From Mycolicibacterium sp. TY81 (GTDB lineage: Bacteria; Actinomycetota; Actinomycetes; Mycobacteriales; Mycobacteriaceae): 64,000 nt of DNA. Shown one piece after another: positions 1 to 19,032 of this stretch; position 1 is the stretch's first letter; each line of letters begins with the position of its first letter. The notes under the pieces are model-generated. The model searched no databases, was not told where the DNA came from, and saw nothing but the letters and a program-made list of their open reading frames with translations. Both the position numbers and the translations under genes were made by a program. The stretch lies in contig NZ_AP023362.1 in the NCBI RefSeq assembly GCF_018326285.1, forward strand, positions 3,968,001 to 4,032,000, read 5' to 3'.

Positions 1-318
1 CGGGTACAGCACCCCCAGCTCGGGCCGGTAGGTGACGCGGTCGGGCGTCACGAACTCGATGGTGGAGCGTCGCGGACCCGCCGAGAGCACCTCCGCGGCC
101 GCCGTGCCCATGTTGTGCTCGATCTGCTGGTCGTTGCGCCACGCGCCGAGCACCAGCAGCACCGACTGCAGGGTCACCAGGCAGCCCATGATCACGATCC
201 CGATCCGGATCCGGCGGATGACGCGCTGCGACCGGGTCTCCTTGCCGTCACCGAAGACCCGCAGAATCAGGTTGTCCCACAACGTGTTCAACCTGCAGCG
301 CAGGGGTTCGGGGATCAC
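1..318 (-). CDS. DUF3592-like membrane protein (Rv0556-like), 3' end outside window
   Basis: The reading frame is open to the window edge, giving about 106 N-terminal residues. A basic stretch (residues about 18-40) is followed by a hydrophobic segment ([20 protein letters not shown]) and a soluble part rich in Arg, Glu and Thr. This layout fits the one-to-two-helix membrane proteins placed directly after menD in mycobacteria (Rv0556 in M. tuberculosis, from memory). The GTG start at 318 overlaps the menD stop as GTGA, suggesting translational coupling. A TTG at 291 is an alternative start. Function is unknown. Confidence 0.7.
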
Positions 319-1964
319 GGCGCGGCCTTGATCGCCGCCCGTATCGATGCGTGCAGCGCCCGCAGGGTGGACCGGTCGGCCTTGACCTCCAGCACGCGCA
401 TCCCCTCGAACGGTTCGCGCAGCGCGGTGGCCAGCCCGTCGGCCTCCACCTGCCGGCACTCGACGTGGTACGCCCGGCACAGGGCCGCGACGTCGACGTC
501 GTGCGGGGTGCCGAAGATGCGCGACGACACGTCGGAGAAGCGGGGATCGCCCTGCTCCAGCAGCTCGAAGATGCCGCCGCCGTTGTCGTTGGAGACCACG
601 ATGGTCAGCGCCTTGGGCATCGGCTCGGTGGGGCCGATCAGCAGGCCCGAGCTGTCGTGGACGAAGGTCAGGTCACCGATGAGCGCGACGGTCCGGCCCG
701 ACGTGTGGGCGAGCGCGGCGCCGATCGCCGTCGACACCGTGCCGTCGATGCCGGCGACGCCGCGGTTGGACCGCACCGAGATGCCGTGCGAATTCAGCCC
801 GACGAGCGCGGCGTCACGCACCGGGTTGGAGGCGCCGAGCACCAGCTGGTCGCCGGACTGCAGCCCGTCGGCGACGGCGGCCGCGACGTGCAGGCCCGTG
901 GTCAGTTCGTAGGCCGCCAGCTGGTCCCGCACCGCGTGCTCGGCGCGGGTGTTGGCCTCGGCACACTTCGCGAGCCAGGCCGGATCGGGAGTGCCCGACG
1001 TGATGGCCCGCGTGCCGGTGGCCTGCGAATTGCCGGACACGTCGGGCCAGCGCGGGCCGGTGGTCAGGGCATAGACGGGCACCGACGGGTCGGCCAGCAG
1101 CGCCGACACCGGCCGGTGCAGTGTGGGCCGGCCCAGCATGATCACCTGCTGCGGCCGGACCAGTGACAACGCCAGCGGATGCAGTGGGTTGTCGGCCGGC
1201 GGCGCGGTCGGTTCGGCGACGGTCGGCAGGTGCGCGAGGTTCTCGTGCCGGCCCGCGCCGTGGCCGGCGATGACGACGGTGTCGGGCGTCAGGTCGATCT
1301 CGAGGGGCTGGTCGAACGTGACGGGCGGGGTGTAGGTCCACGGCCTGCCGTCGGGGCGCCCCTCCGGGCAATAAGAGGAGCCGTCGACCGTTCCCTCTTT
1401 GGCGTCCGGGACCAGCGGCTCCCGCAGCGGGATGTCGAACTGCACGGGGCCGGCGTTGGCCGAGCGAGAACCCTTGGCGGCCACCAGGACCCGGCACGTC
1501 GCCGACCGCCACTGCGCGTTGGCCGCGGCGACGTCGGCCGTCGGCTCGGCCAGGCCGAGGCTGATCGTGGCCCGCACCTGGTTGCCGAAGTAACCGAGCT
1601 GCTCCATGGTCTGGTTGGCGCCGGTGCCCAGCAGTTCATAGGGCCGGTTGGCGCTCAGCACGATCAGCGGCACGCGGGCGTAGTTGGCCTCGATCACCGC
1701 CGGACCGAGGTTCGCCACGGCGGTGCCCGACGTCATCGCGATGCACACAGGTGAGCCGGCCGACACCGCGAGGCCGACGGCCAGGTACCCGGCGGTGCGC
1801 TCGTCGATGCGGACATGCAGGCGCAAGCGGCCGGCGCGGTCGGCGTCTGCCAGCGCGAACGCCAGCGGCGCGTTACGCGAACCGGGGCACAGCACCACAT
1901 CGCGGACGCCGCCGCGAATCAGTTCGTCGACCACGACCCGCGCCTGAATCGTCGACGGGTTCAT
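315..1964 (-). CDS. menD: 2-succinyl-5-enolpyruvyl-6-hydroxy-3-cyclohexene-1-carboxylate synthase MenD
   Basis: ThDP-dependent enzyme that condenses 2-oxoglutarate-derived succinic semialdehyde with isochorismate to form SEPHCHC, the first committed step of menaquinone synthesis, in the cytosol. At 549 residues it has the family length. Visible landmarks are the N-terminal pyrimidine-binding [11 protein letters not shown] with its catalytic Glu, the central domain, and a C-terminal diphosphate/Mg-binding stretch running from [11 protein letters not shown] to NDNGGGIF. It lies 12 bp after bpoC on the same strand and overlaps the next gene by GTGA. The other men genes (C, B, E, A) are spread through this window. 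Confidence 0.97.
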
Positions 1965-1976
1965 TGCTACAGCGTG

Positions 1977-2762
1977 TCACACCGGGTTGGCAGCGAAGAA
2001 TTCCAACATCGCGGCGTTCACCGCATCGGGACGCTCGATGAAGCCGAGGTGCCCGGCGTCGGGGATTTCCAGGTAGCGGCCCAGCGGGATCGCGTCGGCG
2101 ACCTCTTTCGACAGGTGCGGCGGCAGCACGACGTCGTCGGCGAACCCGATCACCTGCACGGGCACCGCGATCTGCTGGTAGGCCGGCAGCCGGTTGGTCT
2201 CGGGCGCGACGGCCAGTTGCGCGCGCAGTCCCGGAGTGGGCTTCGTCGGCCACATGGTGAACATCTCGATCCAGTCCTGGACGGCGCGGTCGTCGTTCAG
2301 GGTCTTGGGTGAAAAGTTCTCGAGCAGACGGTTTTTCGCGTCCACCTCGGGGGGCAGCTCGATGCCGGCGGCGAGCAGCGCCCGCTCGGCCTCGCGGAAG
2401 AATTTGCGGGCCCGGTCCTCGCGGCCGCGCGTGGCCATCAGCACCGCGGAGGACACCAGCTCGGGCCGGGCGACCATGAGTTCCTGCGCGATGAACGACC
2501 CCATCGACACCCCGACGACACGCACCGGGCCGCCGACGACCTTGTTGATCAACGACGCCGTGTCCGCGACCGCCTGGTCGGTGGAGAAGCCGATGGCGTT
2601 CTCGGTGGCACCGATACCGCGGTTGTCGAACGTGATGCAGCGGAAGCCGGCCCGCTGGAACGCCGGTACCTGGTGCAGGTGCCACGTGCGGCCCGCGCCG
2701 CCGCGGCCCGCGATGAACAGCACCGGCTCGCCATTACCGCGCTCGTCATATGCCAGATTCAC
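1977..2762 (-). CDS. bpoC: alpha/beta hydrolase BpoC
   Basis: Alpha/beta-hydrolase related to the non-heme 'bromoperoxidase' BpoC (Rv0554), whose physiological substrate is not established. It has the nucleophile elbow GVSMGS, an oxyanion region around GRGGAGRTW, and a C-terminal catalytic His in DAGHLGF. The chosen GTG start at 2762 (VNLAYDERG) gives 261 residues, the known BpoC length. A longer frame from 2831 would begin inside the intergenic palindrome and is rejected. It sits next to menD, as in M. tuberculosis. The homologous position of MenH in other bacteria makes a menaquinone role imaginable but unproven. Confidence 0.9.
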   Translation of the reverse strand: MNLAYDERGNGEPVLFIAGRGGAGRTWHLHQVPAFQRAGFRCITFDNRGIGATENAIGFSTDQAVADTASLINKVVGGPVRVVGVSMGSFIAQELMVARPELVSSAVLMATRGREDRARKFFREAERALLAAGIELPPEVDAKNRLLENFSPKTLNDDRAVQDWIEMFTMWPTKPTPGLRAQLAVAPETNRLPAYQQIAVPVQVIGFADDVVLPPHLSKEVADAIPLGRYLEIPDAGHLGFIERPDAVNAAMLEFFAANPV

Positions 2763-2783
2763 CCGGCCGAGGTTACTGGACCC

Positions 2784-2836
2784 GGGATTTGTGCACGATT
2801 TTCCGCGGTCGGCGCGGAAAATCGTGCACAAATCCC
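2784..2836. terminator. perfect 24-bp inverted repeat, family A
   Basis: The left arm (2784-2807) and right arm (2813-2836) are perfect reverse complements around a 5-base loop. The arms contain the core TTTGTGCACGATTTTC. It lies 4 bp past the stop codon of the hydratase-like gene and upstream of bpoC, so a terminator or RNA-stabilising hairpin is likely. A near copy of the same palindrome is at 33352-33412. Confidence 0.75.
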
Positions 2837-2840
2837 TAGG

Positions 2841-3554
2841 TCAGCGGCGGGTTCGGACCTTTTTGAGGGCCTGGTCCCACAGCAGCGCCGTGGTGGCCTT
2901 GAGGGCCGTCGGCTTGAGCAGCTCGCGGGACATCAGGGCCGTCGCACTGGCCTTGGTGGCGGCCGAGGCCTTCGACATGTGGCCGGAGTCGAACGGGGGC
3001 TGCGGGTCGTACTCCATGGACAGCTGGATGGCCTTGGCCTTGTCCTCGCCGCCGATCTGCGCGGCCAGCCACAGACCGAGGTCGATGCCGGCCGAGACAC
3101 CCGCGCACGTGACGATGCGGTCGGCCGACTGCACGATGCGCTCGTCGGTGACGGGTTCGACGCCGAACGTGCGCAGCAGTTGCACGGCCGCCCAGTGCGA
3201 CGTCGCGCGCTTGCCCTTCAGCAGTCCGGAGGCGCCCAGGATCACCGAGCCCGAACACACCGACGCCGTCCACGTGGTGGTCTCGTGGGCGCGGCGCAGC
3301 CACTGCAGCAGCTTCTCGTCGCGCGCGTGCTCCATGGTGCTGAACCCGCCCGGGATCAGGATGATGTCGGGCGACGGGGTCTCGTCGAACGAGTGGGTGG
3401 CGCCCACCAGCAGCACCCCGGAGTCGGCGACGATCGGGCCCGGCTCGTGCCAGACGAAACGGACCTCGGTGTCGGGCAGCCAGCGCAACGACTCGTACGG
3501 CCCGATGAAGTCGAGGGCCGTGAACCCCGGGTACAGGACGATGGCAACTTGCAT
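2841..3554 (-). CDS. DJ-1/PfpI family protein, isonitrile hydratase-like
   Basis: A single DJ-1/PfpI domain of 237 residues. The nucleophile elbow TASVCSGS places a Cys at residue 100, followed by GLLKGKRATSHW. Further stretches resemble Pseudomonas isonitrile hydratase InhA as I recall it: WHEPGPIVADSG, the IPGG loop, AGIDLGL and EYDPQPPF. InhA hydrates isonitriles to N-substituted formamides through an equivalent Cys. The gene starts 9 bp after glxA-like and both follow the isonitrile lipopeptide operon on the same strand, which makes an isonitrile-degrading role plausible. Other DJ-1 subfamilies with different substrates share the fold, so the activity remains inference. Confidence 0.75.
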   Translation of the reverse strand: MQVAIVLYPGFTALDFIGPYESLRWLPDTEVRFVWHEPGPIVADSGVLLVGATHSFDETPSPDIILIPGGFSTMEHARDEKLLQWLRRAHETTTWTASVCSGSVILGASGLLKGKRATSHWAAVQLLRTFGVEPVTDERIVQSADRIVTCAGVSAGIDLGLWLAAQIGGEDKAKAIQLSMEYDPQPPFDSGHMSKASAATKASATALMSRELLKPTALKATTALLWDQALKKVRTRR

Positions 3555-3563
3555 TATTGCTCC

Positions 3564-4559
3564 CTAGCTCGCATTTTCTCTGGTCCTCGCGTGCGCGAAA
3601 GTCCTGCGGTACTGGTCGGGTGAAACCCCGACGCGCCGAATGAAACTGCGGCGCAACGTTTCTGCGCTGCCGAAGCCGCAGCGGGCGGCGATGGCGGTGA
3701 CGGTGTCGTCGGTCTCGGTGAGTTGCCGGCGGGCCGCGTCGGTGCGGACGCGCTCGACGTAGGCCGCAGGCGGCTCCCCCACTTCGGCGGTGAAGGTGCG
3801 GGTGAAGTGCCGGGGGCTCATCGCGGCGGCGCGCGCCAGCTCCGGGACACTGTGCGCGCCGCCGGGTTCGGCTTCGATGAGCTCCTGCACATCGCGGATC
3901 GGTTCGCGCTTGGCGCGCGGCATCCACACCGGTGGTGCGAACTGCGTCTGCCCACCGGGGCGGCGCAGGTACAGCACCAGCCACCGAGCGACGTCCTGGG
4001 CGACATCGGTGCCGTAGTCGTCCTCGACGAGGGCCAGCGCCAGGTCGATGCCCGCGGTGACGCCGGCCGCCGTCCACACCTGCTCGGAGCTGCGGACGAA
4101 GATCGGATCGGGATCGACGGTGATGCAGGGGAATTCACTGGCGAGCTTGTCCGCCGAGGCCCAGTGGGTGGTGGCCGAGCAGCCGTCGAGCAGGCCGGAC
4201 TCCGCCGCCAGGAAGGCACCGTTGCAGACGCTGACGATGCGGCGCGCGTGGGGTGCGGCGGTGCGAATCCAGTCGATGACGGCCGGGTTGGTCCGCGCCT
4301 CGTCGACGCCCATGCCGCCGGGCAGCACGATGGTGTCGATGGGCTCGTTGGGGTCAGGCGGCGGCTTGGCGACGAATTCGAGCCCGGTCAGCGTGGTGAC
4401 GGGACCGCCGTCGGCCGCGGCCAGGACCGGCGCGTAGCCCTCGTGACCGCGCCCCATCGCGGCCAGCTGCAGCGTGGCTCCCGTGAACACGTCGAAGGGG
4501 CCGACCACATCGAGGGCCTGCACCCCGCGGAAGCCGAGCAGCACCACAGATCGCGTCAC
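3564..4559 (-). CDS. GlxA family transcriptional regulator (DJ-1/PfpI domain plus AraC HTH)
   Basis: A 331-residue two-domain protein. Residues about 1-190 form a DJ-1/PfpI domain with VSVCNGAF (Cys112) and ATTHW. Residues about 220-325 form an AraC-type double helix-turn-helix, with the typical MSPRHFTRTF and the second-helix pattern around CGFGSAETLRRSF. Such proteins usually sense a small molecule through the DJ-1 domain and activate neighbouring genes. It stands between the HMA protein gene (74 bp away) and the isonitrile-hydratase-like gene (9 bp away), so it is a candidate regulator of one or both. The ligand is unknown. The shared elbow and ATxHW motif suggest a common origin with its downstream neighbour. 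Confidence 0.85.
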   Translation of the reverse strand: MTRSVVLLGFRGVQALDVVGPFDVFTGATLQLAAMGRGHEGYAPVLAAADGGPVTTLTGLEFVAKPPPDPNEPIDTIVLPGGMGVDEARTNPAVIDWIRTAAPHARRIVSVCNGAFLAAESGLLDGCSATTHWASADKLASEFPCITVDPDPIFVRSSEQVWTAAGVTAGIDLALALVEDDYGTDVAQDVARWLVLYLRRPGGQTQFAPPVWMPRAKREPIRDVQELIEAEPGGAHSVPELARAAAMSPRHFTRTFTAEVGEPPAAYVERVRTDAARRQLTETDDTVTAIAARCGFGSAETLRRSFIRRVGVSPDQYRRTFAHARTRENAS

Positions 4560-4633
4560 GCTTCTATCGTGCGACGCCGAGGTCCATGGCGTCTACGCCA
4601 TGGACCCCACAAATCAGGACATGCCGGCCGGCA

Positions 4634-4960
4634 TCACGCCCGGCCGAACAGGCCGCCGACGAGCCGCTGCAGCGGACCCGGGGCCGAGCTGTCCACCGCG
4701 GGCGCGTCAGCGCGCGGTGCGGCGCCGTAGCCCACTGCCACCACGGCGTCGCACAGATCGGCCGGGCTGATGTCACGGTCGGTCTCGACGGTGGCGGTCT
4801 TGGTGGCGAAGCTGACCGATGCGTGCACGCCGTCGATCTTGTTGAGGGCCTTCTGCACCCGCCGGGAACACATGCCGCACGACATTCCGGTGATGTCGAG
4901 ATAGATGGCACCGGTGGTCGGTGCCCCGGTCCGGGGTTCGGTCACATCCGTCAAGGTCAT
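4634..4960 (-). CDS. heavy-metal-associated (HMA) domain protein, copper-chaperone-like
   Basis: A 108-residue protein with one HMA domain (about residues 17-85). It shows the canonical metal site GMSCGMC (Cys28, Cys31) and a CopZ-like beta-alpha-beta pattern, followed by a short Ala/Pro-rich tail ending in VGGLFGRA. Proteins of this kind bind Cu(I). The ATG start overlaps the NRPS stop as ATGA, with a GAGGA ribosome site just upstream, so it is probably translated with the NRPS and belongs to the isonitrile operon. Linking a Cu(I)-binding protein to a copper-binding isonitrile peptide is a sensible role but is inferred. An in-frame extension to 5185 inside the NRPS is rejected. Confidence 0.85.
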   Translation of the reverse strand: MTLTDVTEPRTGAPTTGAIYLDITGMSCGMCSRRVQKALNKIDGVHASVSFATKTATVETDRDISPADLCDAVVAVGYGAAPRADAPAVDSSAPGPLQRLVGGLFGRA

Positions 4961-7900
4961 TTCCTCACAATCTGATCGGCGCCGAAGACAGCGTCGAGCG
5001 GCTGCGGCGTACTGGTGCACTCCGCGATGGATTCGAAATCGATGTCGACAGTGGGATATTCGGCGAGGTACTCGGCATACGTGCGGCCGCGCAACCTCGC
5101 CCCCAACCCGACCCACGCGTCGAGTACCGCCCAGCGCTGTGGATTTCGGGCGGCCCACACGCTGCGGTCCAGCCGGTCCTTCCACTCCGGGAGATCGATG
5201 GCCGGGAACCCGAGGCCGTTGAGAAACGCTGTATAGGGCAGCTTTTCACCGCGTAGCACGGTCATACCGTGGCCCAGCTCCACCGCCGGTGACAGCCCGG
5301 GAAGCAGCCCGAGAATGCTGTGCGCGGCGGCCACGCCGGTGGTGACCTCTTCCGTCACCGGCACCACGGGACACGCCCCCAGCGCGGCGCAGGCATCGAC
5401 CATCGCGACCAGGATGTCCGACGACCGCGCGACTTGACGAGCGTCACCGAGCACCCTGGGCAGGCGCACCACCGAGAAGTCCAGGCCCGCCGCGGCACGG
5501 GACACGACCATCTCCGCCAACGACTTCGACGCGGCATAGGGGTACGGCGCATGGCGCGGGTCGGTCACGCGGGACGCCGTCACGTCGGCGTTCACCACGA
5601 AGGTCGACAGGTGCACCAACCCGGCGCCGCGCCGCGCACACGCCGCGGCGATCGACGCCACCGCGGAAACGTTGGCCGCCCGCAGCCGGCGGTAGGGCAC
5701 CAACACATCGGTGTTGCCGATGCAGTTCACCACGGTGCCGGCGCCGACGCCGGCGAGAAGGTCATCGAGTGCTGCGGGGCTCAGGTGCTCGGGTACCCGC
5801 ACGATGTCGACGCCGTCCACGCGGCGCAGGCCCGTCCACGGATCACCTTCAGGCAGTGGCGATCTCGTGGCGAACACCACGTCGGGACAGTCGAGCCCGG
5901 CCCGGGCGCGGTCGAGGATCGCCTGCGCGAACCCGGTACCCAGGATGCCCGAGGCACCCAGGATCACGATGGCCGGTGCGCCGCGACCGGGCCCGCTGGT
6001 GGCCGGTAGGCAGTCCCTCCGTGCCGCCGCCAGGTCGTCTGCGATCTCGGCCGCGGTCTCCTCGTCCATCCAGGTGTCGACGTCAGGTCTGCGGCCGACG
6101 ATATTGATGGCGGAGTCCGCGCCGATCAGATCGAGAATCGACAGCTGCCAGTCCAGGAACCGTCGCGTCTCCGGCAGGATGCGGATCAGGTCCAGTGAAC
6201 CGATGCCCTCGTCCAGCAGGGACGCGTCCGGCCCGATCGGCCGGCCGAGCCGGCGACTCCACATCCCGGCGAGGACGGCTGCGCGCGGGTCCGCCTCGGT
6301 GCCGTCGCGCGGAACCTCCTTCTCCACAACCAGTTTCGCGCGGTCGACTTTTCCGTTGGGCCGGCGTGGGATGCTCGGGACGCCGACAACGTGAAATGCC
6401 GGTGCCCCATGCGCTCTCGCCAGGTCCTGAATCCTGGCGCGCGCGGCCGGGTCGTCGTTGCCGGTGCGGGTCTGCGGGGTTTGGAACCAGATACCCAGGC
6501 CATCGCCCGCCAGTTCCACTGCCGCGTCGGCTATCTCGGGTACCGACGACAACCGGCGCAGCAGTTCGGCGATGTCGAACCGCTTGCCGGCGATCTTGAC
6601 CACGGCGTCCCGTCGTCCGGCCAGCATGGGGTAGCCCGCGGCGTCTGTCGTCACGCGGTCGCCGGTGGCGAAGGCCCGATGCCGGGAGCCATCGGGCGCC
6701 TGGACCGTGCCGAAGCTCGGGCCGTCCAGCCCGAGGTAACCGGCCGACACCAGCTCCCCGACGACGACCACTTCCCCGAATCCGACGAACACCGAGCCCG
6801 GCACCAGCGGGCGGCCCAGCCTGGCCGTGGTCTGCGCGGGTTCACCCGCACCGATCGGCAGCTGCGTGACGACCACCGTCGTCTCGGTCGGGCCGTACGT
6901 CGAGACCAGGGAAATGCGCTCGGCGGCAAGCACATCCCACCACTTGTCGACCGCGGCGGGACGGACGGCCTCGCCGCCGATGATCACCTGGCGCAGCGCC
7001 GAGCCGCCCAGCGCTGCCAGTGCCGCGTCGTCCTCGCACAACAGATGCCAGACCGCGGTGGGCAGGTCGAGCACGGTGGCGAGGTGCGCCGCGACATCGC
7101 GCGTCAGCGCGGGCAGGTCACCGGCGCGCATCGCGACCGACCGGACGACCCGCGCGCCACACGACAGCGCGCCGAACACCTCCTCCACGCTGATGTCCGA
7201 CGTCAGCGGAGCGCACTGCAGGATGGTGTCGGCCGGCCCCCAGCCGTAGGCATCCCGCACCGCGGCGCAGAAGATAGCCAGCGAACCATGCGTCACCGGA
7301 ACAAGTTTGGGTTGCCCTGTCGAGCCCGACGTGGGCATCACATACGCGAGCCGGGAGCCCAGGCCCTGGTCGCGCATGACCTGGCCGATGCGGTCGTCCA
7401 CGAGTTGTCCTGTCGTGCCGTCCACCTCGGCAACCGGTGTGGTGAGGTCGACGGCGTGCGCACGGGTGCCGCAATGCTCGGCAATGACGCTGACCCGCGA
7501 CTCCACCTCGCCGGGTGTCGCGCAGACGCTGTAACCGCAGCCCGCCAGGTGGCACGCGATCAGCAGCTCCACCGCGCGCTGGGAATCGTCGTCGACGAAG
7601 ACCAGCACATCGCCGGGATCGACACCGCGGCGGATGATCTCGGCGATCCACTGGTCGACGCCCGGGCTGCGGCACTGGCCGGGATCGGCGTCCAGGAACC
7701 AGGCGCGCGCACCGGCGAGTGGCGGCGCGGGTACGCCGGAGCCCGCTTCGAGACGGCCATCGGCGTCGAGCGCCGACCAGTCACCGACGGTCAACGCCAT
7801 CGGCCGGTCCCAGTGCGCGTCCATCGATCGCAGTGCCGCGACGATGCGGCCGGCGACGGCGACAGGTTCAGGGTGATCGTGCCGGGTCCAGATGGCGAAG

Positions 7901-9075
7901 TCGATGGTGCGCCGCGCCTCGTCGTGGACGCAGGAGACCGTGATCCCTTCCACCGGGCCGATATCGGTGACCACCGGGGGTTCGGACAGGTACGGGCCGA
8001 GCTCCGGGGCGGACCGGCCGCGCATGTAGTTGATCGTCAGCGCGTCGACGGGTGCGCCGCTGGTGATCGCGAGATGCATGCGGCGGTACCGCTCTTCCCG
8101 AAACCACCGGCGCCGCAGCGCTTTGACATAGCCGCGGTCGATCGCGGTGACGACGTCCCGGACCGCGGCGAAGGGTGCGAACCGAACCGGGTGGGCGACC
8201 GAATTCACCAGACAGGTGGCGACATTCAGCTCCGGCGCACCGAAGCGGTTGTCCACCGGGTGCACCAGGAGGGCCTCGGTGCTCTGGCGCAGGCTCGCGC
8301 GTACCGCCGCCGCGGCGGCCGCGACCAGGATGTTCAGCGGCACCTGCCGGGCCTCGGCGAGCGCCACGATCTCGTCATAGGCCCGGTCGGCGACTCGGCA
8401 CGATTCCCGCAGCACGCCGCGGCCTGCGGTACCGAGGCCCGCTTCGACAGTGCCCGGCGCGGAACCGCCGCGCAGTGCGTCTTCGGTCAGTTCGCGGCGC
8501 ACCGCGGCAACGTGGCGTTCGGTCGCTTCCGCCACTTTCGCGCGTTCGCTGCGGTGTGCTGCGGCGAGTGCCGCCAAACCTGCTGTGGTGCTGGGCTTCT
8601 GGCCGGCGTCACCGAGATGCCGGGCCAGGTCGGCTTCGATGATTGCGGTCGCAGCGCCGTCGAGCAGGATGTGGTGGGTCTGCGCGTCCATGCCCACCAC
8701 CTGGCCGTCGACGTCGGTGTGCACGACGTAACGCACCAGCGGGGTTTCGAGAATGCCGTCCGCCCATGCCTTTTCCAACGTCTCGCCGACGGGGTCGGTC
8801 TGCGCTCGCACACTGACGACGTCCGCAACCTGGAGGCGGGCAACAAGAGCCGGGTAGCCGTCGCCGGCTGCCGGCGGCTCCAGGACACACAGCTGAATGG
8901 GGTTGTCCCGCACCGTCGCTTCCAGCGCGGACAGGAACCTCGCCGGCGCCAGCGGCCGGAATCGGTAGCGCTTGCCGATCAGATACAGCGCGGGATCGGG
9001 GTCCTGCAGCACCCCGTGGTAGATGTTCTGCTGAGAGATGCTCAGCGGAATCCGTCCGTGGTCAGACGCCGCCAC
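4957..9075 (-). CDS. isonitrile lipopeptide non-ribosomal peptide synthetase, C-A-T-R (ScoA/Rv0101-type)
   Basis: A 1372-residue single-module NRPS. The condensation domain has HHILLDG near residue 133. The adenylation domain has the phosphate loop PTSGSTGQPK near residue 580 and TYGPTETT near 728. The thiolation domain has GIGSLDLI near 958, with Ser as the phosphopantetheine site. The terminal reductase is Rossmann-type, with GASGILGTG near 1040 and YPYAASK near 1178, and should release an aldehyde or alcohol. In the characterised Sco/Rv0096-0101 pathways such enzymes acylate a lysine-type amino acid with beta-isonitrile acyl groups from the partner ACP. The GTG start at 9075 overlaps the ACP gene by 14 bp. 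The M. tuberculosis homologue is about twice as long, so product details should differ. Confidence 0.92.
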   Translation of the reverse strand: MAASDHGRIPLSISQQNIYHGVLQDPDPALYLIGKRYRFRPLAPARFLSALEATVRDNPIQLCVLEPPAAGDGYPALVARLQVADVVSVRAQTDPVGETLEKAWADGILETPLVRYVVHTDVDGQVVGMDAQTHHILLDGAATAIIEADLARHLGDAGQKPSTTAGLAALAAAHRSERAKVAEATERHVAAVRRELTEDALRGGSAPGTVEAGLGTAGRGVLRESCRVADRAYDEIVALAEARQVPLNILVAAAAAAVRASLRQSTEALLVHPVDNRFGAPELNVATCLVNSVAHPVRFAPFAAVRDVVTAIDRGYVKALRRRWFREERYRRMHLAITSGAPVDALTINYMRGRSAPELGPYLSEPPVVTDIGPVEGITVSCVHDEARRTIDFAIWTRHDHPEPVAVAGRIVAALRSMDAHWDRPMALTVGDWSALDADGRLEAGSGVPAPPLAGARAWFLDADPGQCRSPGVDQWIAEIIRRGVDPGDVLVFVDDDSQRAVELLIACHLAGCGYSVCATPGEVESRVSVIAEHCGTRAHAVDLTTPVAEVDGTTGQLVDDRIGQVMRDQGLGSRLAYVMPTSGSTGQPKLVPVTHGSLAIFCAAVRDAYGWGPADTILQCAPLTSDISVEEVFGALSCGARVVRSVAMRAGDLPALTRDVAAHLATVLDLPTAVWHLLCEDDAALAALGGSALRQVIIGGEAVRPAAVDKWWDVLAAERISLVSTYGPTETTVVVTQLPIGAGEPAQTTARLGRPLVPGSVFVGFGEVVVVGELVSAGYLGLDGPSFGTVQAPDGSRHRAFATGDRVTTDAAGYPMLAGRRDAVVKIAGKRFDIAELLRRLSSVPEIADAAVELAGDGLGIWFQTPQTRTGNDDPAARARIQDLARAHGAPAFHVVGVPSIPRRPNGKVDRAKLVVEKEVPRDGTEADPRAAVLAGMWSRRLGRPIGPDASLLDEGIGSLDLIRILPETRRFLDWQLSILDLIGADSAINIVGRRPDVDTWMDEETAAEIADDLAAARRDCLPATSGPGRGAPAIVILGASGILGTGFAQAILDRARAGLDCPDVVFATRSPLPEGDPWTGLRRVDGVDIVRVPEHLSPAALDDLLAGVGAGTVVNCIGNTDVLVPYRRLRAANVSAVASIAAACARRGAGLVHLSTFVVNADVTASRVTDPRHAPYPYAASKSLAEMVVSRAAAGLDFSVVRLPRVLGDARQVARSSDILVAMVDACAALGACPVVPVTEEVTTGVAAAHSILGLLPGLSPAVELGHGMTVLRGEKLPYTAFLNGLGFPAIDLPEWKDRLDRSVWAARNPQRWAVLDAWVGLGARLRGRTYAEYLAEYPTVDIDFESIAECTSTPQPLDAVFGADQIVRK

Positions 9076-9307
9076 GGATGCCCGCCAATTCCCGGACCCA
9101 GCCTTCGATCGTCAGCTCCTGCGCCAGCCGCTTCAGCAGGTCCGATTCCCGGTCCACCCCAAGGCGTTTCATGAGCAGGACGAACCGCACCGAGTCCAGC
9201 CCGAGTTCGCGCAGATCGGTGGCGTCGCCGTCGAACAGGTCGGATTCGTCGATGTAGAGCACGTCGGCGACGGCGGCCAGGACGCGTTCGCGGAGCCCGT
9301 CAGCCAT
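9062..9307 (-). CDS. acyl carrier protein of the isonitrile pathway (ScoB/Rv0100-like)
   Basis: An 81-residue carrier protein with the phosphopantetheine Ser in LRELGLDSVRF. It is expected to hold the acyl chain while the partner enzymes modify it and to donate it to the NRPS condensation domain. The ATG at 9307 overlaps the stop of the ligase gene by 8 bp, and its own end overlaps the NRPS start. Position and size match Rv0100 in M. tuberculosis. Apart from the carrier fold no other domain is visible. Confidence 0.88.
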   Translation of the reverse strand: MADGLRERVLAAVADVLYIDESDLFDGDATDLRELGLDSVRFVLLMKRLGVDRESDLLKRLAQELTIEGWVRELAGIRGGV

Positions 9308-10802
9308 GGACCGCCGCTGCCAGTGCGGCGCGAATGACCTTGCCGGACTGCGTCCTGGGTATCTCGGTCACCAGCGTGATGGTCGACGGCCTGGCCATCG
9401 ATTCCGACTCCGCCCGATAGCGCGCCGCGATGGCCCGCTTGAGCTTGCGGGCCTGACCTTCGTCGAGTTCGCCCGACGGGATCACCGCCAGACCGATCAG
9501 GGCACCGAATTCGGTATCGGGGATCTCGAAGCAGGCCGCCGCACCGACGCCGGGGACGCTCTCGGCGATGCGGTCCACCTCGTCGGGTGCGACGTTGACG
9601 CCGCCGGAGATGATCATCTCCGATGACCGGCCCTTGATGTAGAAGTACCCGTCCACACCGCGCTCGAAGATGTCGCCGGTGTTCACCCAGCCGTCGACCA
9701 GGATGTCAGCGGTGCGCTCGGGATTGTTCCAGTACCCCAGCATGTTTGCCGGTGATTTGATCCACAGGGTGCCCGACTCGGCGCCGTCGCCGTCTAGCCG
9801 GACCTCGACTCCCGGGTACGGCCGCCCCACGGCGCCCGCCTCGATCCGGGCGATCGATCCCTCCGATGTCGGCAGACACAGGGCGGTACAACCGGTTTCG
9901 CTCAGGCCGAAGACCTGGGCCGTGTGAACGCCTGCCGCTTCGACGAACTGCACATCGGCCGCGATGGCACGCGATCCGCCGTAGCCGATCATGCGCAGTG
10001 GCGGCAGCGCCGCCCCGGCCCTGACCTCCGACACCAGTCGCGTCAGCAGGGTGGGCACCAGACAGGTCGAGGCGATCTGGTTGACGTTGAGAATCTCGGC
10101 CAGCGAGGCGGAATTCTCACCGCCGGTGACACATTCACTGCCGTGCATCAGGCAGTTCAGGATCCACCACAGTCCGCCGATGTGGCTGGCGGGCAGCGGC
10201 GAGTAGGTGGCTTCGCCGGCAACCCAGCTGATCCAGGTCAGGTTCTCGCGCGCCAGGATGTCGGCGACGGCGAAGAACGTTCGGTTGGCCAGCAGCACGG
10301 CTTTCGGTTCACCAGTGGTCCCGCTGGTGAAGATCATCGCCAGCGGATCATCGGCGCCCAGTTCCGGCGGTGCGACGGCGGGCGCGGCGTCGCCGTGCCC
10401 GGCGACCTCGTTGGCGTCGACGGCGATCACCGGGATGGCGCTCAGCGTGTTTGGCAGCGCCGCCGGGTCGGCTCCCGGGGTCAGCAGCACCGCACCGGGG
10501 CCGGTGATCTCACCGAAGCGTGCGACCGTCGCGGCCGGGACAGCACGGTCCACCAGCACGGCGACGGCACCGAGCTGCGCGCAGGCCAGCACCGCGACAT
10601 AGGTCTCGGGACCGTTGTCGGACATCACGAATACCCGGTGGCCACGGCAAACCCCGCACTCCCGCAGCTCGCCCGCCAGCCGGTTCACCACGGCGGGGAG
10701 TTGGCCGTAGGTGACGGCGCTCGTCCCGTCGCAGCGCCGCAACGCGATGGCCTGCGGGTGCTGCCGCGCCTGCGCGAGCACCCGTCCCAGTACGGTGCTC
10801 AC
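9300..10802 (-). CDS. acyl-AMP ligase, FadD10/ScoC-like
   Basis: A 500-residue ANL-superfamily enzyme with the AMP-binding signature FTSGTTGEPKAVLL, GLSETGCTAL and the C-terminal hinge and lysine region PRTQSGKVIRAAL. FadD10 and ScoC load a medium-chain fatty acid onto the dedicated ACP via an acyl-adenylate rather than CoA. The same reaction is expected here because of the gene order thioesterase-ligase-ACP-NRPS. The GTG start overlaps the upstream stop as GTGA. Chain-length preference cannot be read from the sequence. Confidence 0.88.
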   Translation of the reverse strand: MSTVLGRVLAQARQHPQAIALRRCDGTSAVTYGQLPAVVNRLAGELRECGVCRGHRVFVMSDNGPETYVAVLACAQLGAVAVLVDRAVPAATVARFGEITGPGAVLLTPGADPAALPNTLSAIPVIAVDANEVAGHGDAAPAVAPPELGADDPLAMIFTSGTTGEPKAVLLANRTFFAVADILARENLTWISWVAGEATYSPLPASHIGGLWWILNCLMHGSECVTGGENSASLAEILNVNQIASTCLVPTLLTRLVSEVRAGAALPPLRMIGYGGSRAIAADVQFVEAAGVHTAQVFGLSETGCTALCLPTSEGSIARIEAGAVGRPYPGVEVRLDGDGAESGTLWIKSPANMLGYWNNPERTADILVDGWVNTGDIFERGVDGYFYIKGRSSEMIISGGVNVAPDEVDRIAESVPGVGAAACFEIPDTEFGALIGLAVIPSGELDEGQARKLKRAIAARYRAESESMARPSTITLVTEIPRTQSGKVIRAALAAAVHG

Positions 10803-11344
10803 GGGATGTTGAGGACCGCGAGTTCGAACTCGCCGAATGCCGATCCGCCGTGGTCATCGTGGAACTCGATGGCGCACGGGACTTTCAGATACCGCCAGGT
10901 CCGCTCGACGACCTCGATACCTTCGCACGTCAGCCGCGCGGAGAACTTGCGCGCATCGATCTGCCGCTTGTAGCGCGACGCCGTCGACCGGATCAGCATG
11001 CTGGACAACTGGTTCTCGAAATAGTCGTCGAGCGACCACCCCCGGAACCCGTCGATCTCGCCGTGGCGGACGGCCGGCGCGAACGCGGAGTAGGCGAGCT
11101 GGTTGAAGCACAGCACCAGTTCGACGGCGTTGAAATGCCCGGTGCTCCGGATGTAGACCGACTCCGGGATGCTGAAGTTCCCCGTCGCGAACATCGAGTC
11201 GCCGGTGGCCCGGTACGTCGCGTCGGTGAGATACCGGCAGCCCTTGTAGGAATAGGGCTCCAGGACTCTGGCCAGCAGCTCCTCCGGAATCTGCTCGGTA
11301 TCAACCCATTCGGCGACGGGCGCGGTCAACTCGGTGGCGCTCAT
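10799..11344 (-). CDS. FcoT-like thioesterase/dehydratase-fold protein (ScoD/Rv0098-like)
   Basis: A 181-residue protein that looks like Rv0098 (FcoT) in size, position and sequence style; landmarks are LEPYSYKGCRYLTDATY, VELVLCFNQLAYS and SMLIRSTASRY. Rv0098 has a hot-dog fold and was described as a fatty acyl-CoA thioesterase. In the Sco pathway the homologue adds glycine to the alpha,beta-unsaturated acyl-ACP, making the substrate for isonitrile formation. The ATG at 11344 overlaps the oxidase stop as ATGA, so translation is probably coupled. Confidence 0.87.
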   Translation of the reverse strand: MSATELTAPVAEWVDTEQIPEELLARVLEPYSYKGCRYLTDATYRATGDSMFATGNFSIPESVYIRSTGHFNAVELVLCFNQLAYSAFAPAVRHGEIDGFRGWSLDDYFENQLSSMLIRSTASRYKRQIDARKFSARLTCEGIEVVERTWRYLKVPCAIEFHDDHGGSAFGEFELAVLNIP

Positions 11345-12210
11345 GCCGCGAACCCCGGCGTCGCCAGGCCGTCGAGCATCGTCAGCCGATACGTCGTCAG
11401 CGTCCCTGTCGCGGTGCCGTGCTTCGCCCGGTGGATCAGGGCCCTGTTGTCCCACAGGATGATGTCGCCGACCTCGTAGTGCTGCGTATGGATGAACGGG
11501 GACGCGAAGTCGGCGTCGAGCTGGCCGGTGGCGGCGAGCAGTTCCTGCAGCACCGAGGGGTCCAGTACCTCGCCGTCGGCGTCTTCGATCTTGCTGGTGC
11601 CGGTGGAGCAGATGTAGAGGATTTCCTGGCCGGTGTGCGGGTGCCGGATCACCGTGGGCCACTTGATCGGTGGCGTGGCGCGGTTGATCTCGTCCCACAC
11701 CTCACCGATCGGCTTGTAGACGTCGCTGGGCCGAATCTTGATGTGGCGCCGCGGATCATGCGTGCTGAACGTCCCGCGTACCGGCTCTTGCTGCGCCGGC
11801 GGCAGGGAATCCCACACCTTGTTGAGATCGATGAAGTACGTGCCGCGGTCGGCGCCCGGCACCGTCAGCGGCATCACCATGGAGAACGCGAACGGCTCCG
11901 GCATGAACATGTAATCGATGTGCCAGAACGCACCCGTGCGCGGCACGCCCTGCCCCTCCTCCGTGGAAGAGACGAAGATCTCCGGGTGCTCGTTGTGGTG
12001 GTACACGGGCTCGTAGTACGTGACGATCTCACCGAGAATGCGGCCGAGCTCGATGAACTGCGCGGGCGAAGGTTTGACGCCCTTGAGGACGACAAGCTTG
12101 TTCTCGTAGACGATTTCGCGGAGCTCGTCGGTGGAGATGTTGCTCAGATTGTCCGGATCGATTCCGACGACCTGGGCTCCGAGCCCGTGTCCCTGCACAT
12201 TGAGCGTCAT
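11341..12210 (-). CDS. Fe(II)/2-oxoglutarate-dependent isonitrile-forming oxidase (ScoE/Rv0097-like)
   Basis: TauD/TfdA-family enzyme of 289 residues, the length of Rv0097 as I recall it. The metal site is visible as HxD in AFWHIDYMF and a distal His in DNRALIHRAKHG, with the 2-oxoglutarate-binding Arg expected in the TYRLTMLDG stretch. ScoE and Rv0097 oxidise and decarboxylate an N-carboxymethyl-beta-amino acyl substrate to leave the isonitrile, so this is the signature enzyme of the cluster. The ATG at 12210 has GGGAGG about 9 bp upstream and is preferred over a start at 12243. A predicted promoter lies about 100 bp upstream, so the enzyme genes may be transcribed separately from the PPE gene. 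Confidence 0.92.
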   Translation of the reverse strand: MTLNVQGHGLGAQVVGIDPDNLSNISTDELREIVYENKLVVLKGVKPSPAQFIELGRILGEIVTYYEPVYHHNEHPEIFVSSTEEGQGVPRTGAFWHIDYMFMPEPFAFSMVMPLTVPGADRGTYFIDLNKVWDSLPPAQQEPVRGTFSTHDPRRHIKIRPSDVYKPIGEVWDEINRATPPIKWPTVIRHPHTGQEILYICSTGTSKIEDADGEVLDPSVLQELLAATGQLDADFASPFIHTQHYEVGDIILWDNRALIHRAKHGTATGTLTTYRLTMLDGLATPGFAA

Positions 12211-12310
12211 CGACGCTGCCTCCCCAAGTTTGCTGCACCGCATCGCGGGGATGTCGAAATCCGTTGCTCCGCAATGCAGAAAGTCGTTCAGTTGTTGTCT
12301 TCAATTGATG

Positions 12311-12338
12311 TAGTCGTCGGAGCATCGAGAAAAGTTCC
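12311..12338 (-). promoter_or_regulatory. ECF-sigma-like promoter ahead of the oxidase gene
   Basis: On the minus strand GGAAC (12338-12334), a 17-base spacer and CGACTA (12316-12311) form an extracytoplasmic-function sigma promoter. The spacer shares the string CTCGATGCTCCG, with one difference, with a second copy before the PPE gene. The predicted start near 12304 gives a leader of about 95 bases. From memory, SigM of M. tuberculosis controls ppe1-nrp through GGAAC-type promoters, which fits. Confidence 0.6.
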
Positions 12339-12358
12339 GCGCCGCTTCACAATTCGCG

Positions 12359-13816
12359 TCAGCGCTGCGGAGACCCGTCCGCCGCGCCGGAAGCCCAGGT
12401 GCCCGGAAGCAGGGGCGCCGGCGGGTTCGCATCGGCCGGCATCCGCTCCACCATCCCGCTGGGTGCGGTGCTCGCTGTGGTCACCACACCGGTGAACCCG
12501 ACCGGCCCGGCACCGTGCGCATTGGCGGAGATGACGGCCGCACTCGGCGAATTGCCGCCGGCACCAGGCAGATCGGCTTTCAGCTCGGGAAGCTCATCGC
12601 GATAGCCACGTGCCCCGCGCCGGCTTCGACGCACTCGTTTGGCCCGGTCACGGGCGCCGGCCACGGCCCGGGCGGCCGCTGCCGCGCCGACGGTGTCGGT
12701 GGTGATATCGGGCGATTCGCTGCCGGGCTCCGGTCCCGGGCCCGACCCGGCGCGCGCCAGCCCGGGCACGGCGTAGACCAGGTTGGACACCGGGGCGGCA
12801 CCGCCGGCCCCGGCGGTCGTCGACGCCGGCGTGGACGGCCCGGAAGCCTGCGGCACACCGACCTGGATGCCGGGGACAACCGGGACGGCCTCAGCGCGTG
12901 GTGCAGCGGCCGCAGGCTGCCCGACAGCAGCCTCGGCAGGCACCGGTGTCATGTCCATCGCCGGTGGCAGTGGCGATTTCACCAGCGCCAGCGCCGCGAG
13001 CGCACTGAGTGCCGGCGCGAAGAACGGGGTCAGCAGCAGTCCATAGGAGGCGTAGTACGGGTACCAGAGCATGTCGTAGAGCGTCAACGCCACCAGAGCC
13101 AACACCGCGGACGTGGCGGGGTTGAAGCCCAGCTGCTCGAAGAAGCGTGTGAAGTTCTCGAGCATCTGGTCGATCTGACCGGGCGTACCCAGTTGCGAGA
13201 GGAATTGCCAGAGGTCGCGCAGCGGCTGGCTCGGCGCGGCGGACAGGTTCGACATCGGCTGCCGGGCTTCACCACCGGGCGCGACGATGGACGGCGCCGG
13301 CTGTGTGGGCGGGACCGCGGCCGTGGCCGATTCACTCACCGCCTGGTAGACGATCATGGTGTCGGCCGCCTGCACCCACATGCGCGCGTAGTCGGCTTCG
13401 TTGAGCGCGATGGGAATCGTGTTGATACCGAAGAAGTTCGTCGCCACCAGGGCGGCATTGGTCACATGGTTGGCAGCCAGTTCGACCAGTGTCGGCATGG
13501 TCGCGACAGCGGTGCCGTAGGCAGCGGCCACGGTCTCGTGCTGCGCCGCCGCGGCGGCCGAGGCCAGTGCGGACTCCTCCAACCAGGCCAGGTAGGGCAC
13601 GTGCGCTGCGACGTACTGGACGGCGCTCGGCCCCTCCCAACTACTCCCCTGCACGTCGGTCAAGATGGCCGACAGCTCGGCGGCCGCCTGCCCGTACGCC
13701 ACGCTCAGCTGTTGCCACTGCGCGGCGGCAGCCAGCAGCGAGCCTGGCCCCGGCCCGGCTGCCAGGAGCGCCGAATGCACTTCCGGCGGTAGCGCCAGCC
13801 AAATCGGTGCGGTCAC
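12359..13816 (-). CDS. PPE family protein heading the isonitrile operon (PPE1/Rv0096-like)
   Basis: A 485-residue PPE protein. Pro-Pro-Glu is at residues 10-12 and a WxG turn lies in SSWEG near residue 58, within a mainly helical N-terminal domain of about 180 residues. The C-terminal part has hydrophobic stretches (around LALVALTLYDMLWYPYYA and LSALAALALVKS) and a Pro/Ala/Gly-rich tail. PPE proteins are normally exported by ESX systems to the envelope. The orthologue position in M. tuberculosis is PPE1, first gene of Rv0096-Rv0101. A role in moving the isonitrile peptide or its copper complex is often suggested but unproven. The GTG start almost coincides with the predicted transcription start, so the mRNA may be leaderless. 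No PE partner gene is adjacent. Confidence 0.88.
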   Translation of the reverse strand: MTAPIWLALPPEVHSALLAAGPGPGSLLAAAAQWQQLSVAYGQAAAELSAILTDVQGSSWEGPSAVQYVAAHVPYLAWLEESALASAAAAAQHETVAAAYGTAVATMPTLVELAANHVTNAALVATNFFGINTIPIALNEADYARMWVQAADTMIVYQAVSESATAAVPPTQPAPSIVAPGGEARQPMSNLSAAPSQPLRDLWQFLSQLGTPGQIDQMLENFTRFFEQLGFNPATSAVLALVALTLYDMLWYPYYASYGLLLTPFFAPALSALAALALVKSPLPPAMDMTPVPAEAAVGQPAAAAPRAEAVPVVPGIQVGVPQASGPSTPASTTAGAGGAAPVSNLVYAVPGLARAGSGPGPEPGSESPDITTDTVGAAAAARAVAGARDRAKRVRRSRRGARGYRDELPELKADLPGAGGNSPSAAVISANAHGAGPVGFTGVVTTASTAPSGMVERMPADANPPAPLLPGTWASGAADGSPQR

Positions 13817-13823
13817 TGTCAGC

Positions 13824-13851
13824 TAGTCGGGCGGAGCGTCGAGAAAGTTCC
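13824..13851 (-). promoter_or_regulatory. ECF-sigma-like promoter ahead of the PPE gene
   Basis: On the minus strand GGAAC (13851-13847), a 17-base spacer and CGACTA (13829-13824). It shares its elements and most of its spacer with the promoter at 12311-12338. The start predicted 6-8 bases further falls at about 13817, next to the GTG of the PPE gene at 13816, suggesting a leaderless transcript. Confidence 0.6.
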
Positions 13852-13956
13852 CGGCCACCGAAAACTCCTATGCCGCAGCCGGATATCGCCACACGACGGA
13901 AATGCCGTTCCTGGGGCCGGTGCCACCGACGTGATCGGCAGACGTACGGTGGGCCC

Positions 13957-14766
13957 ATGTCAGTCCTCGACGCCCGCCATCTCGACGGGGTATCCGAAAC
14001 CGCGCTCCTCACCTTGCACCAGCGCGCCACCGAGGCCGCCCGGCCCGACGGCATCATCGACGACCCGATGGCGATCACGCTGCGGGACAGCCTCGATTAC
14101 GACTACCAGGATTTCGGCCGTACCCATCAGGCCACCGCCCTGCGGGCCCTGGTGTTCGACGCGGCCACCCGCGATTATCTGACCGTCCACCCGCGCGCGA
14201 CCGTCGTGGCGCTGGCAGAGGGTCTGCAGACCAGCTTCTGGCGCGTGGACAACAGCGAGATGACCTGGCTGTCAGTGGATTTGGCACCGATCATCGCGCT
14301 CCGGCAGCAGCTGCTCCCGACGTCCGGCCGGCTGGGGTATCGCGCGCAGTCCGCGCTCGACCACTCGTGGATGGACGCCGTCGACGCTGCCGACGGCGTG
14401 CTGATCACCGCCGAAGGCCTCTTCCAGTATCTGACCGAGGACGTCGTCTTCGCTCTCATCGCCGCCTGCGCCGACCGTTTTCCCCACGGGCAGTTGGTCT
14501 TTGACAGCGTGCCGCGGTTCCTGAGCGCCTATTCGCAGCGCCGCGGCTTCCGGCTCAGCGCGGACTACACCGTGCCCCCGATGCCGTTCTGGTTCACCGC
14601 CGACCAGTACCCGCGGTTGCAGGCCATCCCCGGCGTCCGTGCGGTGCGTGAACTGCGCTATCCGGCCGGCCGCGGCAAGCTCGTGCCGTGGGTCACCCGG
14701 CAGTCCTACCGCCGGCCGGCGTTGGCGCGCTTCCGCGCACCGGTGACGCTCGTCGAATTCAGTTGA
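13957..14766 (+). CDS. LCM/TcmP-type S-adenosylmethionine-dependent methyltransferase
   Basis: A 269-residue protein of the leucine carboxyl methyltransferase-like (LCM, TcmP/Ppm1) family that is abundant in mycobacteria. The N-terminus (SVLDARHLDGVSETALLTL) is typical of the polyketide O-methyltransferase-like subgroup. A modified SAM-binding region follows around VVALAEGLQTSFWRVDN, and ITAEGLFQYLTEDVV is the conserved core. It is divergent from the PPE gene with 140 bp between them, and its end overlaps menC by 8 bp on the opposite strand. The substrate is unknown. A role in tailoring the isonitrile product is possible from position but not supported otherwise. Confidence 0.8.
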   Translation: MSVLDARHLDGVSETALLTLHQRATEAARPDGIIDDPMAITLRDSLDYDYQDFGRTHQATALRALVFDAATRDYLTVHPRATVVALAEGLQTSFWRVDNSEMTWLSVDLAPIIALRQQLLPTSGRLGYRAQSALDHSWMDAVDAADGVLITAEGLFQYLTEDVVFALIAACADRFPHGQLVFDSVPRFLSAYSQRRGFRLSADYTVPPMPFWFTADQYPRLQAIPGVRAVRELRYPAGRGKLVPWVTRQSYRRPALARFRAPVTLVEFS

Positions 14767-15730: not shown

Positions 15731-15756
15731 GGCGGGCGGCACCCCTCCATCGTGCC

Positions 15757-17331: not shown

Positions 17332-17360
17332 GTGCTGAGCCTGCCACGTCTGCCGCGCGC

Positions 17361-18971: not shown

Positions 18972-19005
18972 GAGGTGGATGCTAGACCGCAGGGCTTGAC
19001 CTACG

Positions 19006-19025
19006 GACTAGAACACGTTCTAGTC
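19006..19025. promoter_or_regulatory. KstR-like operator palindrome
   Basis: GACTAGAACACGTTCTAGTC has 9-bp arms around a 2-base centre. The inner 14 bases TAGAACACGTTCTA (19009-19022) match the published KstR consensus TnnAACnnGTTnnA exactly. It ends 7 bp before the fadD8 ATG, where bound repressor would block transcription. KstR controls sterol catabolism genes in actinobacteria; another TetR-family regulator could use the same site. Confidence 0.7.
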
Positions 19026-19032
19026 TTAGGTC

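Follow-up and report, generated by a model that had tools for sequence, protein, structure and literature searches.

A 64,000-nucleotide stretch of the genome of Mycolicibacterium sp. TY81, an environmental mycobacterium (contig NZ_AP023362.1, positions 3,968,001 to 4,032,000), called the window throughout, carries on its minus strand a run of PPE, ScoE, FcoT, FadD10, acyl carrier protein (ACP), non-ribosomal peptide synthetase (NRPS) and HMA genes (13816–4634), which, judged by its genes, is a predicted mycobacterial chalkophore (isonitrile lipopeptide) cluster with a single-module NRPS. The core of this cluster is ordinary. Its accessories, a small HMA protein encoded behind the NRPS and an adjoining methyltransferase (MT), are the part that we did not find described in the literature consulted. 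We consider it probable, with some reserve, that the whole is a copper-starvation cassette in which the HMA protein would receive Cu(I) for a Cu-ATPase and an oxidase-assembly route.

A chalkophore gene cluster in the window

The features of the cluster and of the adjoining MT gene are as follows.

13957..14766, plus strand: LCM-type S-adenosylmethionine-dependent MT, 269 aa, divergent from the PPE gene (PF04072 31.7 bits, cut-off 22.3)
13824..13851, minus strand: SigC-type promoter-like motif GGAACTT-N15-CGACTA before PPE (pattern match)
12359..13816, minus strand: PPE protein, PPE1 counterpart, 485 aa (PF00823 200 bits)
12311..12338, minus strand: second SigC-type promoter-like motif GGAACTT-N15-CGACTA, before ScoE (also in L031-L034 and L080)
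11341..12243, minus strand: ScoE-type iron/2-oxoglutarate-dependent oxidase/decarboxylase, putative isonitrile former, 300 aa (NF049937 485.6 bits, cut-off 400)
10799..11344, minus strand: FcoT-like protein, putative ScoD-like glycine-adding step, 181 aa (PF10862 198 bits)
9300..10802, minus strand: FadD10-type fatty acyl ligase, 500 aa (NF004515 836 bits, cut-off 726)
9062..9307, minus strand: ACP, 81 aa (PF00550 30.7 bits)
4957..9075, minus strand: single-module NRPS with predicted condensation, adenylation, thiolation and reductase domains (C-A-T-R), 1372 aa (A, T and R by Pfam)
4634..4960, minus strand: small HMA protein, 108 aa, with GMSCGMC and a C-terminal tail (PF00403 46 bits)

A ScoE-type oxidase, an FcoT-like protein, FadD10, ACP and a reductase-ending NRPS thus stand in one run. 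With gene starts taken as called, adjacent genes from ScoE through to HMA all overlap, by 4-14 bases, and the ATG of the HMA gene overlaps the NRPS stop codon as ATGA. Counts of relatives refer to 57 named loci, all from one scan, in 54 of which the NRPS end was located; handles beginning with L and G denote loci and genomes. Since the biosynthetic order recurs in these loci, the run goes beyond chance. The PPE gene, which heads it, is present in 52/57, and the NRPS frames of the 54 relatives span 1367-1492 codons (except the broken one of L072, with 546), which points to one module. The nearest named matches were Mycobacterium sp. ST-F2, Mycolicibacterium sp. lyk4-40-TYG-92 and M. llatzerense, a list from which near-identical records may be omitted.

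A preliminary description of this DNA had proposed a chalkophore locus. Its named genes were all found on the minus strand where it had put them, and the proposal gains weight from ScoE and FadD10, both of which exceed curated equivalog cut-offs. Its assignment of a C-A-T-R NRPS holds for A, T and R, which Pfam recovered; the C domain gave no Pfam match at 1e-3 and was seen by motif only, namely HHILLDG at residue 134 of the N-terminal part, read in the sequence only, which we take to be a condensation motif. The divergent MT gene, the flanking men genes and the two GGAACTT-N15-CGACTA sites were absent from that description.

Association of the small HMA protein with the cluster

In 30 of the 54 named loci with a located NRPS end, the small HMA gene starts less than 100 bases from the stop of the NRPS, so that the coupling to the NRPS noticed in the preliminary description proved more widespread than had been thought there. 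In L040 and L076 it lies on the opposite side, beside MT, which brings the total to 32/57 loci with two alternative positions in the cassette. The ATGA overlap holds in the window, not in every relative.

Counts for the genus were made in 198 Mycobacterium genomes, 46 with a strong ScoE match (ScoE+) and 152 without (ScoE-). Among the matches listed, which reach down to E ~3e-15 and have a short open frame, a small HMA was present in 25/46 ScoE+ and 1/152 ScoE- genomes (Fisher p 5e-18). All 25 of the ScoE+ copies lie on the same contig as ScoE, within 8 kb; the HMA of G022 has a longer frame, and counting it gives 26 ScoE+ genomes. The lone ScoE- exception, G165, has its HMA next to remnants of an NRPS (219 aa) and an MT (81 aa). 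All listed relatives in the 198 genomes therefore go with an intact or a decayed cluster, which makes the small HMA a concrete candidate for the copper receiver, and these results support the view that the HMA gene belongs to the chalkophore cluster. The same genome as the window has another small HMA, a 94-aa frame at C1:462323 beside a Cu-ATPase, which gave no match to the cassette HMA family at E 1e-6.

The decayed cluster of G165 (L134 6635-11097) has an HMA gene, a SigC-family gene and a Cu-ATPase gene that look intact.

Alignment of 29 HMA sequences showed that both motif cysteines and nine more columns are invariant, with a third Cys nearly so. By eye, the tails end in short hydrophobic or amphipathic stretches. 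The AlphaFold2 model has the beta-alpha-beta-beta-alpha-beta HMA fold at residues 17-83 (pLDDT mostly ~90), followed by a linker and a helix (96-102), both of low confidence. The best PDB matches are metal-binding domains of Cu-ATPases, and in a tree of 58 rows and 68 columns 36/37 small HMAs stand together with modest support (84/79), apart from the ATPase domains. The HMA fold and CxxC are common to the cassette protein, CopZ chaperones and the Cu-ATPase metal-binding domains, and the cassette HMA is thus an HMA domain with CxxC, as CopZ-family proteins are. It differs from CopZ in its 108 aa with linker and tail and in matching the ATPase domains in the PDB better than CopZ, and it stays below the CopZ cut-offs (NF047957, 55.1 vs 85; NF033794, 42.3 vs 95; NF033795, 37.5 vs 91). 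In view of these scores, it may work like CopZ and is not filed as CopZ.

Insertion site and borders of the cassette

The cassette is flanked by men genes, with menC above and a bpoC-like gene plus menD below. The corresponding features are listed here.

14759..15739, minus strand: menC, host locus (NF002782 483 bits, cut-off 288)
4623..14778, no strand: inserted cassette, a block absent between menC and GlxA in cluster-free relatives (empty-site alignment)
4581..4606, minus strand: inverted repeat with 11-bp arms and a 4-base loop, no T-run, in the GlxA upstream region
3564..4559, minus strand: GlxA/FtrA-type AraC regulator with a DJ-1 domain (PF12833, PF01965)
2841..3554, minus strand: isonitrile-hydratase-like DJ-1 protein, 237 aa (best PDB match InhA 6ni5, 167 bits)
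1977..2831, minus strand: alpha/beta hydrolase of the host locus (PF12697), presumably bpoC-like, as we name it from the gene order
315..1964, minus strand: menD, host locus (TIGR00173 345.8 bits, cut-off 244.2)

Five genomes lacking a strong ScoE match (L088, L091-L094) have the cluster-free order menC-GlxA-DJ-1-bpoC-menD. When they were aligned to the window, homology ended at 4621-4630 and restarted at 14779-14781. The junction is sharpest in L093, where base 3304 corresponds to window 4622 and base 3307 to window 14779, the ends being 3 bases apart; in L094 and L091 the two ends lie within 16 bases of each other, and L092 has ~400 and L088 ~750 bases of other sequence between them. The break at ~4623-14778 indicates that the inserted block consists of MT, the genes from PPE to NRPS, and HMA, ending just past the stop codon of HMA; it includes neither GlxA nor DJ-1.

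A single insertion event for all men-locus clusters was considered and rejected, since an NRPS tree needs 3 changes, of which the starred branches force 2; two meetings, or one with losses, are both possible on this tree. It was built by a quick method with 33 rows; the loci were chosen (34 plus the window), and two of them, L040 and L050, were left out because no NRPS was called in them.

The insertion between menC and bpoC-menD puts menaquinone genes downstream of what is probably a copper-starvation operon.

The GlxA–DJ-1 pair

The preliminary description had counted the DJ-1 gene as part of the cluster. For this window that claim fails, because the GlxA–DJ-1 pair is already present in the five cluster-free relatives. 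DJ-1 homologs (E <= 1e-30) were found in 187/198 genomes and GlxA homologs (E <= 1e-60) in 175/198, compared with 46/198 for a strong ScoE match, and a DJ-1 gene is in view in 6/57 named cluster loci. It had been allowed beforehand that HMA and DJ-1 genes might prove to occur mostly without the NRPS cluster in relatives; this was found for DJ-1 and not for HMA. In nine fetched stretches that have the pair and no adjacent cluster (L088, L091-L095, L144-L146), GlxA directly precedes DJ-1 in 9/9; bpoC-menD comes next in six, and three are located elsewhere. The genome of L146 (G022) carries the cluster elsewhere.

An element of approximately GTCCTRATYTGTGGG and then CATGGCGTAGACGMCA, with variants, precedes GlxA both with and without the cluster, as judged by eye; by the same inspection it was not seen in L067 and L139, where GlxA directly follows HMA. 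L138 (broken gene call) and L143 (locus edge) were left out of this comparison. Because the element is kept with or without the cluster, the GlxA–DJ-1 pair of the window would be an older unit with its own control. Membership of DJ-1 and GlxA in the cassette of this window was rejected on the empty-site and upstream-element comparisons, and the pair is most likely an independent, older unit that was present before the cassette arrived.

By consensus, no terminator was found between HMA and GlxA. The hairpin there has a z of -2.3 against shuffles, 4/200 of which fold as well, and it may be an operator, since it lies within the old GlxA upstream region and has no T-run.

The hydratase-like character of the DJ-1 protein, also proposed in the preliminary description, agrees with its best PDB match. 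Cys 100 and Asp 15 align with the Cys and Asp of InhA, the Asp of ALD and the Cys of SVCSGS being kept and the Thr next to the Cys replaced by Ser. We take these aligned residues to be the catalytic ones of the isonitrile hydratase (InhA/ICH) literature, and the source organism of InhA/ICH to be Pseudomonas. The DJ-1 fold family is shared as well, so the protein does look like an isonitrile hydratase. It differs from InhA/ICH in the Ser, in that its gene is widespread in cluster-free mycobacteria, and in that its activity is predicted only. Since InhA is the closest solved structure, the protein may have a biochemical link to isonitriles. Rv0052 has been annotated as an isonitrile hydratase by structure similarity (PMC8562490; this and the other papers are cited from the parts of the text available to us).

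The methyltransferase, the promoter-like motifs and the SigC-family gene

MT hits of at least 65% identity, the threshold for counting orthologs, were found in 42/46 ScoE+ genomes and 0/152 others (p 9e-39), the G165 remnant aside. The ScoE+ genomes without a hit are G026, G075, G115 and G175, and MT and ScoE stand on different contigs in G141, G147, G169 and G190. The gene is present in 49/57 named loci, with a partial copy in L080. Distant MT paralogs are common (174/198 genomes at E <= 1e-60). MT thus appears to travel with the cassette, and its distribution would imply a missing step in the pathway or in its regulation.

The motif GGAACTT-N14/15-CGACTA occurs in 38/49 MT–PPE intergenic regions (a count that takes in the window and has one contig twice). 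In the 6.47 Mb genome that hosts the window the exact pattern has two sites, both in the cassette. A SigC-family gene over the NF007231 cut-off was found in 46/46 ScoE+ genomes and 74/152 others (p 2e-12); 57 genomes score 319-374 bits (13 of them ScoE+), and the rest over the cut-off score 222-269. In the window genome this SigC-family gene lies 2.7 Mb from the window and has genes for a Cu-ATPase and a CtaG-type membrane protein as neighbours; a sigma gene of this type lies inside the locus in 26/57 named loci. Eight ScoE loci outside the genus were also inspected, and a SigC-like gene is close in two and a Cu-ATPase in two.

L153 and L154, both outside Mycobacterium, have a SigC-like gene near the ScoE cluster; L153 also has a Cu-ATPase and an apparent ABC transporter, the latter recognised by eye.

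A probable copper-starvation cassette and its alternatives

The favoured reading can be set out in steps. A mobile cassette, in which MT diverges from PPE-ScoE-FcoT-FadD10-ACP-NRPS-HMA, inserted between menC and the GlxA-DJ-1-bpoC-menD genes already present there. When copper is scarce, its transcription would start at two promoters, driven by a SigC-family extracytoplasmic function (ECF) sigma factor. A beta-isocyano fatty acyl chain would be the joint product of FadD10, ACP, FcoT and ScoE. The single-module NRPS would then attach it to a diamino acid, and reductive release would yield a diisonitrile lipopeptide that binds Cu(I). For uptake, the PPE protein would assist at the outer membrane. 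Once the copper complex has returned to the cytosol, the HMA protein, whose synthesis is coupled to that of the NRPS, would accept its Cu(I) and deliver it to the Cu-ATPase encoded beside the SigC-family gene, at the metal-binding domain of that ATPase, and so to oxidase assembly. Gene content and order, the site of insertion, the promoter-like motifs and the co-occurrence of the cluster with HMA, MT and a SigC-family gene are observed; the product, its induction and uptake, the transfer of copper and the role of MT are inferred. We regard this model as the simplest because copper-starvation induction and SigC control of nrp are published: copper starvation induces the nrp genes, without which growth at low copper fails (PMC9600254), and in M. 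tuberculosis SigC increases ppe1-nrp and ctpB (PMC7924339). How copper is freed, within a mycobacterial cell, from a chalkophore that binds it very tightly is a question that the text consulted does not answer. HMA, heavy metal, chaperone and methyltransferase are not mentioned in the available main text of PMC9600254 (supplements lay outside the search); in that of PMC7924339 there is no mention of HMA, heavy metal or chaperone, and methyltransferase occurs once, for an rRNA enzyme.

Several results weigh against the copper-starvation reading. No listed small HMA occurs in 21/46 ScoE+ genomes (20 if G022 is counted), from which it follows that chalkophore use in itself does not require the HMA. 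Where a named locus lacks a small HMA (25 loci), a Cu-ATPase is in view in 15 cases and a CtaG-type gene in 12. No small HMA was seen in the 20-kb stretches of the eight ScoE loci outside the genus. The promoter pattern, although conserved at the expected place, is a putative SigC element. Its reversed form, used as a control, has one match in the same 6.47 Mb genome; the exact form is present somewhere in 90/198 genomes, including genomes without the cluster, and lies near a PPE gene and type VII secretion genes in three fetched stretches. The one SigC-family gene over the cut-off in the window genome scores 251-253.7 bits against a cut-off of 219, in the lower class, and may thus be a paralog of SigC rather than the published SigC, which slightly lowers our confidence. 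The FcoT-like protein reaches 131 bits with the ScoD equivalog NF049938, below the cut-off of 250. Finally, the M. tuberculosis product was argued to serve for zinc, not copper, by Mehdiratta et al. 2022, as cited elsewhere.

Other explanations assign different roles to the same genes. If HMA and DJ-1 were both genes of the locus, DJ-1 could hydrate the isonitrile to a formamide, releasing copper and detoxifying or recycling the chalkophore. The likeness to InhA among solved structures, with Asp and Cys kept, fits this, as do the position of DJ-1 1.1 kb behind HMA in the same direction with no consensus terminator between, and the different DJ-1 gene (DJ1p, described below) that adjoins a second isonitrile set in 5/6 cases, the L090 copy of which is closest to InhA. 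With DJ-1 homologs in 187/198 genomes, most of them cluster-free, the pair in its men-locus order in five relatives without the cluster, a similar GlxA upstream element with or without it, and DJ-1 in view at so few cluster loci, we consider this account quite unlikely. A broader proposal for rapid growers is an acquire-and-release cycle, in which the tailed, membrane-seeking HMA would take Cu(I) while hydratase-like DJ-1 proteins destroy the isonitrile and free the metal; the repeated meetings of cluster and GlxA/DJ-1, the second set included, would then reflect selection rather than coincidence. This is speculative, and we hold it to be rather improbable.

Instead of accepting imported copper, the HMA protein could also serve as a buffer or sensor partner for copper, shielding the cell, or the iron enzyme of the biosynthesis, against copper or against the cell's own isonitrile. 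Its production in step with the NRPS in the window (ATGA overlap) and a C-terminal tail without an assigned role are compatible with this; the CxxC HMA domains of the matched known families, which we take to be Cu(I) carriers, and the nearly half of clusters that have no HMA speak against it, and it seems to us unlikely. A passenger role for the HMA gene, which would then encode a truncated metal-binding domain of an ATPase carried along by the cassette, would agree with the place of the small HMAs next to ATPase domains in the 58-row, 68-column tree. The invariant motif cysteines and nine further columns in 29 sequences, the two different positions in the cassette and the survival of the gene in the decayed G165 cluster make this explanation highly improbable.

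Comparison with known systems and related loci

The nrp (ppe1-Rv0101) cluster of M. tuberculosis and M. marinum, with the gene order that we presume for M. tuberculosis, has the PPE-oxidase-FcoT-FadD10-ACP-NRPS content in common with the window. Sco/SF2768-type Streptomyces clusters, whose content is likewise given as we presume it, share the ScoE-type oxidase, FcoT-like protein, ligase, ACP and NRPS. Relative to nrp, the window adds the terminal HMA, the adjoining MT, the second promoter-like motif before the oxidase and the men-locus site. The cluster was found in many fast growers among the named loci, going by the growth classes that we assume for the species. This finding corrects the statement, in the available text of PMC7924339, that the operon is not conserved in fast growers; isonitrile lipopeptide genes had already been reported in M. 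abscessus (PMC8586431). The window NRPS has one module, whereas Rv0101 alone is reported to have an additional one, for Phe (PMC9600254). Control of ppe1-nrp by SigC is published (PMC7924339), and the window has a conserved promoter-like motif before PPE. As to Streptomyces, PPE1 is described as belonging to mycobacteria, and S. thioluteus as having SfaE in addition (PMC9600254).

Six genomes (G157, G018, G172, G184, G143 and G416) have a second isonitrile-type set that lacks an NRPS of its own and consists of ScoE2-FcoT2-FadD2 with a divergent protein of ~440-500 aa. Its loci are as follows.

L090: 2770-8066
L096: 58-4701
L138: 8470-13568
L143: 943-6114
L139 and L141 (split): 15249-19822 and 19-609
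L158 and L159 (split): 16939-19882 and 209-2166

The divergent protein had no Pfam match over the cut-off, and its L096 copy had no PDB match up to E 1. In 5/6 genomes a convergent DJ-1 gene (DJ1p) overlaps the divergent gene by 4 bases. The closest solved structure to DJ1p of L090 is InhA (136 bits), and the other copies are ~79% or more identical to it. In the 198 genomes a second FcoT occurs in 5/46 cluster genomes and 0/152 others. The second set is the more promising candidate for an isonitrile pathway that has a dedicated hydratase.

In L130, L131 and L132 pairs of GGAACTT-N-CGACTA stand ~1.6 kb apart around PPE and eccA-like type VII genes. EccA and EccB were confirmed in L130, and we take the type VII genes of these three stretches to be ESX-3. 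The paired motifs hint at a shared regulator or a second sigma factor.

The cluster itself lies beside type VII secretion genes in L139-L140, L142, L147 and L149, mostly with an MmpL gene between, and EccA, EccB, EccD or EccE was confirmed in L140, L142, L147 and L149, where the type VII genes are again presumably ESX-3. Judged by gene sizes, the same neighbourhood is seen in L049, L051, L067 and L148. The cluster PPE has 48-69% local identity to the PPE genes of L130-L132, and this identity, together with the type VII neighbours, suggests that the cluster PPE may be exported by that system.

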